Shown: in pieces, positions 18,750-21,843 of the stretch
Layout of the letters: the number at the start of each line of letters is the position of its first letter
Numbering within the stretch: the first letter of the stretch is position 1
NCBI GenBank assembly: GCA_005878385.1
Contig: VBMN01000055.1
Location: 1 to 39,086, forward strand
DNA from: Methanobacteriota archaeon
GTDB taxonomy: Archaea > Thermoplasmatota > Thermoplasmata > RBG-16-68-12
Direction of reading: 5' to 3'
Length of the DNA: 39,086 nucleotides
Notes under the pieces: generated by a model
Seen by the model: the letters and a program-made list of their open reading frames with translations, nothing else
The model's database searches: none
Told to the model about the DNA's origin: nothing
Position numbers and translations under genes: made by a program

Positions 18750-19245
18750 AGGCCGCGACGGCGTTGCATCGTGTGCAGAATGCCCGGGTCTTGCGGTCCG
18801 TATCTTCCAGCTTCTCGGAGAAATGCATCACGCACTCGAGGTTGGCGTCGTCATGGTACAGACCCAGGGTGTGACCGAGTTCGTGGATCGCGGTCTTGGC
18901 GGATCGCTCCAGAAGCTTCTCGGGCCCGTCGTTCCCGAACCGGGCGATCGAGATCACTGCAAACCGATCTCGGATTGTAGCGTGGCCGAACACGAAGTTC
19001 AATCCGCGTTCGAACAAGTCGACGTCCGTCACCGCAAGGACACGGTCGCCCTTTTCCGGGGCCATGGCTTTCTCGAACTCAGTCGCCAGGTATTGGACCT
19101 GTCCATCCCGGTTCCGCTGGATGAAGGAATCCGGCACCGCCTGCGACGCCGAGAGGGACACTTCGCCCATGTCGTGCAGTTCTTCGCGCAGGTATTCGAG
19201 GACCTTCGAATCGATCCTTCCGAAGGGCTTGATCGTGAGGTTCAT
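18724..19245 (-). CDS. amzA: Archaemetzincin metalloprotease
   Basis: HELGHTLGLYHDDANLECVMHFSEKLEDTDRKTRAFCTRC: HExxHxxGxxH plus CxM...CxxC. Confidence 0.93.
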   Translation of the reverse strand: MNLTIKPFGRIDSKVLEYLREELHDMGEVSLSASQAVPDSFIQRNRDGQVQYLATEFEKAMAPEKGDRVLAVTDVDLFERGLNFVFGHATIRDRFAVISIARFGNDGPEKLLERSAKTAIHELGHTLGLYHDDANLECVMHFSEKLEDTDRKTRAFCTRCNAVAAFTLSRLGT

Positions 19246-20738
19246 CCTTTCACGACTCCGAGCGGGACCATCCGGGCGACGATCTTCGTCAGGCCCGCGC
19301 CTTCCGCGACCCGGACGACATCTTCCACGTTCTTGTATGCGCCGGGGGCTTCCTCGACGATCCCCGCGCGCGACGCCGCCCGCAGGTAGATGCCCCGCTT
19401 GTCGAGGGATCGGACGACCTCGTTCGCATCATACATTCGAGTTGCCGCCTTGCGAGACATCTGGCGGCCGGCGCCGTGGCAGCTCGAACCGAAGGAGCGC
19501 TCCATCGCCGTCGGCTGGCCGACGAGGACGAAGGAGCATGTGCCCATGTCCCCCGGGATCAGGACGGGCTGGCCGACTTCCTTGTACTCGGCGGGCGTCT
19601 CGGGGTGTCCGGGGGGAAACGCCCGCGTCGCGCCCTTCCGGTGCACGACGACCTTCTGTCGCGTCCCATTCACCTGGTGCTCCTCCACCTTCCCGATGTT
19701 GTGACAGACATCGTAGACGATCCCCATCCCGAGGTCCTCGGCGGACCGCCGGAGCACATCGGCGAAGGCGTTGCGCACGCCAAACGTGATCACCTGTCGG
19801 TTGTTCCACGCGAAGTTCGCGCCGCAACACATGGCCCGCCAGTAGTCCTGACCCTCCTTCGAGCCGATCGGAGCGCAGGCGAGCTGGAGGTCCGGTAGCT
19901 CGATCTTCTCGCGCTTCACCACGCGTTCGCAGGCCTCGATGTAGTCGCTTGCAATCTGGTGTCCGAAGCCGCGGGAACCGGTGTGGACCATGACGCACAC
20001 GGTCCCGACCGAGTCAATCCCGAGCGCCTTCGCCGCCCGGGCATCGTACACGCGGTCGACCTTCTGAATTTCCACGAAGTGATTCCCCGCCCCCAAGCTT
20101 CCGACCTGGTCCTTCCCTCGGGTGATCGCCCGCTCCCCCACCCGGGAGAAGTCGGCGTCGGGCAGATGGCCCTCGGCCTCGATATGCGCCGTGTCCTCCG
20201 GCCAGGCGTAGCCCTTCTCGACGGACCACGCGACCCCGTCCGTCGCGAGCTTCGCCAAGTCTTGCCGAGATACCTTTGCGAGGCCGCCTTCCCCGACGCC
20301 GCTCGGCACGTTCTTGAAACAGGCGTCCGTGAGGGCCCGGATGTGCGGACGCACGTCCGCTTCCTTGAGGTCCGTCCGGATCAGTCGCACGCCACAATTG
20401 ATGTCGTATCCGATCCCGCCGGGCGAAATGACGCCCGAATCGTAGTCGAACGCGGCCACACCCCCGATCGGGAATCCGTACCCCCAGTGGATATCCGGCA
20501 TGGCCATCGCCATGCCCACGATACCGGGCATGGTCGCCACGTTCGCGACTTGCTCCGGAGCCCGATCTTGCCGGAGCTGGGGGATCATCGGCTCGTCCAC
20601 AAAGATGAGGCCGCTCGTCCGCATCTGTGGCTTGTAGGAGCGCGGGATCTGGAACCGAAACGGGTCCACCTTTTCCAGGGGGCCGCTCCATCCGTCGACC
20701 ATGGTACCGGGAGGGGCAACTAACGACGGAGCGTTCAT
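19242..20738 (-). CDS. rtcB: tRNA-splicing ligase RtcB
   Basis: MPDIHWGYGFPIGGVAAFD, GGIGYDINCGVRLIRT, GSLGAGNHFVEIQ, SSCHGAGRQMSR. ATG 20738 preceded by TATA CATATAGTTTAC. Confidence 0.95.
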   Translation of the reverse strand: MNAPSLVAPPGTMVDGWSGPLEKVDPFRFQIPRSYKPQMRTSGLIFVDEPMIPQLRQDRAPEQVANVATMPGIVGMAMAMPDIHWGYGFPIGGVAAFDYDSGVISPGGIGYDINCGVRLIRTDLKEADVRPHIRALTDACFKNVPSGVGEGGLAKVSRQDLAKLATDGVAWSVEKGYAWPEDTAHIEAEGHLPDADFSRVGERAITRGKDQVGSLGAGNHFVEIQKVDRVYDARAAKALGIDSVGTVCVMVHTGSRGFGHQIASDYIEACERVVKREKIELPDLQLACAPIGSKEGQDYWRAMCCGANFAWNNRQVITFGVRNAFADVLRRSAEDLGMGIVYDVCHNIGKVEEHQVNGTRQKVVVHRKGATRAFPPGHPETPAEYKEVGQPVLIPGDMGTCSFVLVGQPTAMERSFGSSCHGAGRQMSRKAATRMYDANEVVRSLDKRGIYLRAASRAGIVEEAPGAYKNVEDVVRVAEGAGLTKIVARMVPLGVVKG

Positions 20739-20810
20739 AAACGTTCTTGCGACTTTGACACGCGGTCGTAAACTATATGCCCGGCCGTGACATCGTATGC
20801 CACGGGTTGA

Positions 20811-20942
20811 GACGAGCTCCGGTTTCGCTCCTCTCGCGCCGCCTTCGGGTGGGCATGGACGGCGGGGATTCGAGGGCCGAGGACACCCCGATTGAGGGGG
20901 AGGGATCGGGCCCAGCGGCCCCGCGAGCGCCCGGAGCTCGTC
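20811..20942 (+). ncRNA. Candidate structured RNA of unknown class (strand uncertain)
   Basis: Perfect 12-bp inverted repeat GACGAGCTCCGG (20811-20822) / CCGGAGCTCGTC (20931-20942), nested pairing CGCTC/GAGCG and CTCGCG/CGCGAG, internal hairpins CCCGAT...ATCGGG and GGGCC...GGCCC; T-rich cccttttc follows on + strand; no credible CDS in the gap. Confidence 0.5.
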
Positions 20943-20985
20943 ACTCCCTTTTCTGTCGGATGCGCGCAAGATTACGGTCGAGATC

Positions 20986-21843
20986 TCAGCCGCGGGCCTC
21001 GTCGATGGCCACGATCGCTTCCCGAATCAGACGGGCTCCAAGCAACGCCGTTTGTCCGAAATCCCATGCGGGGCTGACCTCGTTCAGGTCCATGCCGACG
21101 AGGTGCGGCGCAAGGATGCCGATCAGCTTCTTCACCTGTAGGGGCGTCAGCCCAAACGGCTCGGGATTCCCGACCGCCGGCGCGTATGCCGGATCGACGC
21201 CGTCCATGTCGACCGTGAGGTAAATCCGATCCCGGTTGACGGCCTTCAGTGCCCGCTCGACACCCGCCACGATACCATGATCATGGACATCGAAGACGCT
21301 CACGTAGGTGAGACCGAGTCGCTCCAGATCCTCCCGTTCCTCGCGGCTGTACGACCGGACGCCCAGGTAGACGACGTGTTCGACGCCGACATGGTCCGCA
21401 ATCCGACGGGCGCTGCACGCGTGCGACCACGGATCGTCGAGGTACGTCTCTCGGAAGTCCAGATGGGCGTCGATCCCGATCACGCCGACGTCCTTCGGGA
21501 AGGCGCGGACGACCGCGGGCGCGAGGCTGTGCTCCCCGCCAATCACGATCGGTATCTTTCCTGCCCCGACGATGTCGGAGGCCATCTTCGTGACGCCGGC
21601 GACCATCTCCGTCGTGGGTCCGAAGGCGGGCGTATCGCCCAGGTCGGCCACGGGGACCTCGAGCAGGTCCCTCTGGTGGTCCATCATGAAACTCTCGAAA
21701 TTGTACGAGGCCTCACGGATCGCCCGAGGCGCAAACCGGGAGCCACCACGGAAGGAGCACGTGCGATCGTACGGCACGCCGAACACGGCGATGCGGGCTG
21801 CCTCGTACTTCGCGACGGCGTCCGCGAAACAGGGCGCGGCCAT
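20986..21843 (-). CDS. speB: Agmatinase/arginase family ureohydrolase
   Basis: GGEHSLAPAVVRAFP, GIDAHLDFRETY, SHACSARR, DMDGVDPAYAPAVGNPEPFG, MDLNEVSPAWD. Confidence 0.93.
   Translation of the reverse strand: MAAPCFADAVAKYEAARIAVFGVPYDRTCSFRGGSRFAPRAIREASYNFESFMMDHQRDLLEVPVADLGDTPAFGPTTEMVAGVTKMASDIVGAGKIPIVIGGEHSLAPAVVRAFPKDVGVIGIDAHLDFRETYLDDPWSHACSARRIADHVGVEHVVYLGVRSYSREEREDLERLGLTYVSVFDVHDHGIVAGVERALKAVNRDRIYLTVDMDGVDPAYAPAVGNPEPFGLTPLQVKKLIGILAPHLVGMDLNEVSPAWDFGQTALLGARLIREAIVAIDEARG

Follow-up and report, generated by a model that had tools for sequence, protein, structure and literature searches.

The window, i.e. the whole stretch of 39,086 nt analysed here, consists of GC-rich DNA in which an archaeal SRP RNA and tRNAs were detected. 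Its minus strand carries rtcB, encoding an RNA ligase of 486 aa (19242-20702; probable start MVDGW, with the probable ATG at 20702), whose family assignment was made by Pfam in the relative G021, and an agmatinase-family gene (20986-21840), which was named from its sequence in the earlier note. The gap between both genes had been put at roughly 250 nt; from the ATG at 20702 to the stop at 20986 it is slightly longer, namely 283 nt. This gap beside rtcB appears to hold a small-RNA gene of ~150 nt, probably previously undescribed, with a candidate promoter and terminator. The proposed ncRNA gene extends from 20801 to 20953 on the plus strand, with CACGGGTTG as its conserved 5′ end and the T-run CCCTTTTC at the other end, as delimited by covariance-model matches and the alignments A1, A5 and A6, with both transcript ends being estimates. 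It is oriented divergently from rtcB and is convergent with the agmatinase-family gene. A promoter-like block of rtcB itself (CGCAAGAACGTTTATG, 20736-20751, minus strand), conserved in relatives, is located ~35 nt before the rtcB ATG. Since this block lies nearer to the start codon, the ncRNA falls outside the rtcB leader.

The gap contains an inverted repeat, the closing stem P1, formed on the plus strand by the 5′ arm GACGAGCTCCGG (20811-20822) and its exact complement, the 3′ arm CCGGAGCTCGTC (20931-20942). As described in the earlier note, the arms match perfectly over 12 bp and enclose 108 nt. No other perfect 12-bp inverted repeat with a spacing of ≤150 nt occurs in the window. First-order Markov simulations predict 1.3 perfect 12-bp repeats per window, and only 0.4% of simulated gaps of 247 nt contain one. 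For the 132-nt stretch the folding energy is -77.7 kcal/mol on the plus strand (z -2.8) and -71.1 kcal/mol on the minus strand (z -2.9). The z values are alike on both strands and thus do not tell them apart, and folding energy is no more than moderately unusual; by itself, it proves little in GC-rich DNA.

Conservation within one archaeal genus

A DNA search recovered the gap in most members of a genus of archaea that are uncultured and come from soil and sediment. A first covariance model, built from 11 copies, reached homologues more distant than those found by DNA search, and a second one, built from 17 copies, gave matches in 17 of the 19 genus genomes. The element is therefore conserved in relatives and occurs in essentially every genome of the genus, with 16 intact copies, one decayed copy, one copy interrupted by a contig end (G003) and one genome that is not assessable, the rtcB-bearing contig starting within rtcB (G012). 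Among the Euryarchaeota/Thermoplasmata assemblies matched in a genome-wide pattern scan were RBG_16_67_27, RBG_19FT_COMBO_69_17, UBA8695, DBS2-1.bin2 and a set of EA isolates. Further pattern matches, to bacteria and to one viral contig, were rejected as chance similarity to the stem arms, and four DNA-level side hits (L014-L017) were treated as non-members, their matches covering only 22-37 nt. A mobile element was likewise rejected, since the window's own genome contains the element once only and relatives have it at the corresponding position.

None of 281 other genomes of the class gave a covariance-model match (300-genome sample, strict filters). Two sister-genus genomes, G020 and G021, are both assessable and carry rtcB with upstream DNA that lacks the element, and a pattern search for fragments of the RNA in the sister genus, allowing 3 mismatches, returned scattered chance-like matches only. 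Within the genus the RNA adjoins rtcB in nearly all genomes where both are visible. An exception is L034/L052 (UBA8695), in which rtcB and the RNA lie ~1.7 kb apart with other sequence between them, and the promoter-like element of the RNA is retained. The intervening stretch may hold a minus-strand gene. On the other side, the agmatinase gene is replaced or displaced in relatives, with a permease-like gene at this place in L031 and L035. In the alignment of homologues, close relatives are separated by indels of 1-2 nt, which argues against a coding role for the element.

Promoter- and terminator-like signals, strand and fold

Upstream of the element, a BRE/TATA-like promoter element of the TCGTAAACTATATG type is located at 20766-20779 on the plus strand, with TATATG at 20774-20779. 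In 17 of 17 homologues the TATA-like box starts 27-28 nt upstream of the conserved CACGGG / CACGGGTTGGG block. A distance of 27-28 nt is usual in archaea between the TATA element and the transcription start. A similar promoter spacing and layout precedes the SRP RNA of this window. The box itself is weak in several relatives (TTCATG, or TTCTTG in L035, where it is altered) and in the decayed copy L032. Directly after the closing stem follows the terminator-like CCCTTTTC (20946-20953, plus strand); a CCYTTTTC-like run is found at this position in all 16 intact copies, slightly varied in a few of them and reading CCTTTTTC in one subclade, and is missing in L032. Thus, the TATA-like site and the 3′ T-rich run pointed out in the earlier note are both present and conserved, and their distances match those of an archaeal stand-alone small RNA. 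In L032 (G017:C17:8000-8143) TATA element, closing stem and T-run have decayed jointly, which would be expected of parts of a single unit, and parts of the interior are still recognisable; this species seems to have lost the element.

Comparison of the homologues also bears on the strand. Within the helices, deviating pairs read on the plus strand comprise 54 G-U cells versus 17 A-C cells, counted over sequences and not as independent events, in an alignment that was fitted to the plus-strand model and favours G-U somewhat. On the minus strand those G-U cells would become A-C mismatches. A sequence-only alignment of 11 close relatives contains the same kind of wobble change. Taken together, the G-U asymmetry, the T-run and the promoter point to an RNA from the plus strand. 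Both flanking genes in the window lie on the minus strand, as would suit a cis element there, either a terminator of the agmatinase gene or a leader of rtcB. We consider this most improbable, since the minus side has no T-run, the promoter-like block of rtcB sits between element and start codon, the element stays when the downstream gene changes, and the helix changes disrupt minus-strand pairing. A function at the DNA level, in which the inverted repeat and its flanks would serve the rtcB region as an operator or as part of its promoter architecture instead of encoding an RNA, would account for P1 arms whose conservation lies more in the sequence itself than in compensatory change and for the adjoining promoter-like blocks. 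However, G-U prevails over A-C among the deviating pairs on only one of the strands, the T-run and the promoter spacing agree with plus-strand transcription, and the element survives 1.7 kb away from rtcB, so that this explanation is also unlikely. A stand-alone structured RNA gene on the plus strand is the likely identity of the element.

In such a plus-strand RNA the closing stem is firm: it is present in all 16 intact copies, 97% of the P1 cells are paired in the sequence-only alignment, and one position occurs as U-A, U-G and C-G. According to the consensus fold, P1 is probably extended by pairing of the ends, i.e. of the GGG in the 5′ tail (20804-20806) with the CCC at 20946-20948. Inside P1, three plus-strand hairpins are supported in aggregate. 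P3 (20832-20868) has 97% of its cells paired, including wobbles, and recurs in wider sets; its G-rich loop GGGTGGGCAT (20847-20856) is, together with the loop of P4, the best conserved of the segments predicted to be unpaired. P4 (20887-20910) is found in the alignments including the wider sets, and a motif like its predicted unpaired loop GGGGGAGG (20896-20903) is present in 17 of 17 homologues. P5 (20915-20924) is a small GCG/CGC hairpin. Of the nested pairings listed in the earlier note, CGCTC/GAGCG forms inside the closing stem and the CCCGAT/ATCGGG hairpin is conserved with a G-rich loop, whereas CTCGCG/CGCGAG and GGGCC/GGCCC compete with conserved helices and are unsupported as drawn.

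The covariation analysis proposed in that note gave a divided result. In the model-fitted alignment, which leans towards the model, changes in both partners were seen at 23 of 37 pairs compared to 9.4 in shuffles, and slid controls were also exceeded; the excess was weaker in the sequence-only alignment (12 versus 6.9). With a phylogeny-aware null, 0 of 37 pairs reached E<0.05 in either alignment, the aggregate measures being above controls. Folded singly, several homologues have only modest energies (z ~0 to -3), and the inner helices vary between subclades, with competing pairings present. Since no pair is individually significant and the inner folds vary by subclade, we treat the inner fold as a working model.

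Known RNA families and possible modes of action

A search against 4227 Rfam models, as suggested in the earlier note, gave no match to the element, either at gathering score or with E relaxed to 10, which covers Box C/D, H/ACA and the remaining described families, and four distant homologues had no match at E up to 1. In the literature, no published description of the element was found. SRP RNA and RNase P RNA, of which the earlier note saw no hallmarks, are both encoded by separate genes. The SRP RNA, encoded at 2409-2720, was thereby ruled out. It resembles the element in being TATA-driven and rod-like with its ends joined by a long stem, and differs in being a gene of its own. RNase P RNA was ruled out as well, with no Rfam hit at the element and with genes elsewhere in 9 genus genomes above the cut-off. 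The window's own genome has one RNase P RNA match only (G000:C158:2126-2395), which is below the family cut-off, and in G002 three RNase P RNA-like matches share a contig (L094, G002:C33:1-3200), with a fourth elsewhere.

Archaeal intergenic small RNAs have their own promoter, end in a U-run, are structured and are narrowly distributed. The element shares with them the intergenic site, the upstream promoter-like element, the U-run end, the structure and the narrow distribution, but differs in sequence and fold, and no Rfam family matches it. The earlier proposal of a stand-alone ncRNA is supported by conservation in the genus, the fixed promoter spacing, the T-run at the 3′ end, the asymmetry of the wobble pairs and the lack of an Rfam match, and we regard the element as a probable new family of an otherwise ordinary kind. 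Structured RNAs are also known beside rtcB in bacteria, where Y-RNA-like RNAs occur in rsr-yrl-rtcBA operons. These have in common with the element the position next to rtcB and a terminal stem joining the ends. In contrast, the element is divergent and not in an operon, has no Rfam match, and belongs to a genus without TROVE protein (Ro60; 0 of 19 genomes, several of them incomplete, versus 1 of 14 in the control). A Y RNA bound to Ro60 was therefore rejected.

The proximity to rtcB had led to the speculation that the RNA is a ligation or circularisation substrate of RtcB. An intron-like or circular RNA arising through cleavage by the tRNA splicing endonuclease and RtcB ligation, or an RNA that serves this ligase as substrate or regulator, would be in line with the near-constant adjacency of both genes and with a closing stem that holds the 5′ and 3′ ends together. 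Yet a bulge-helix-bulge motif is not conserved, no position being common to more than 4 of 17 homologues and counts being mostly near shuffled levels. Moreover, both sister-genus genomes carry rtcB without the element, the adjacency is broken in L034/L052, and divergent neighbours often remain together without a functional link. The speculation is not supported by these data, and we judge an RtcB-linked RNA to be quite improbable. Slightly less probable still is that in this genus the RNA is dedicated to RtcB as its partner, e.g. as ligation substrate, RNA-damage sensor or regulator of the ligase.

For the stand-alone RNA we propose the following mode of action. Transcription would start near 20801, ~27 nt past the BRE/TATA element of the gene, and the transcript would end near 20953, in the U-run that follows the closing stem. 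The RNA would adopt the shape of a rod, in which a long terminal stem joins the 5′ and 3′ ends, thereby possibly protecting the molecule, and about three hairpins lie inside. Two G-rich apical segments, GGGUGGGCAU and GGGGGAGG, are the best conserved among the parts predicted to be unpaired. The likeliest action would be in trans, with the G-rich segments pairing with C-rich mRNA stretches or forming a protein-binding site; a trans action through these loops is a tentative suggestion and rather doubtful. Some copies may possibly form a G-quadruplex. Shine-Dalgarno mimicry by GGGGGAGG was discounted, since conservation concerns the G run and not the GGAGGUGAU extension, an argument based on known 16S ends.

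Origin of the locus

The element is a probable structured RNA family that Rfam does not list; it is kept in essentially all assessable members of the genus and was undetected elsewhere in the sampled class. The covariance models allow others to find and annotate the RNA. The site appears to be empty in the sister-genus genomes, and the element may thus be a young, lineage-specific RNA gene with a traceable origin. Outside the genus, in L073, L076 and L078, a gene ending with TCAGTACTC (reverse strand), which its translation context marks as permease-like, is often located directly upstream of rtcB. Since L031 and L035 keep this gene beyond the RNA, the RNA gene may have arisen or inserted between this gene and rtcB. 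The sister-genus rtcB at L093 (G021:C61:5290-8235) is interrupted after about residue 103 by several hundred additional residues in frame, with a match to the Pfam model Intein_splicing.
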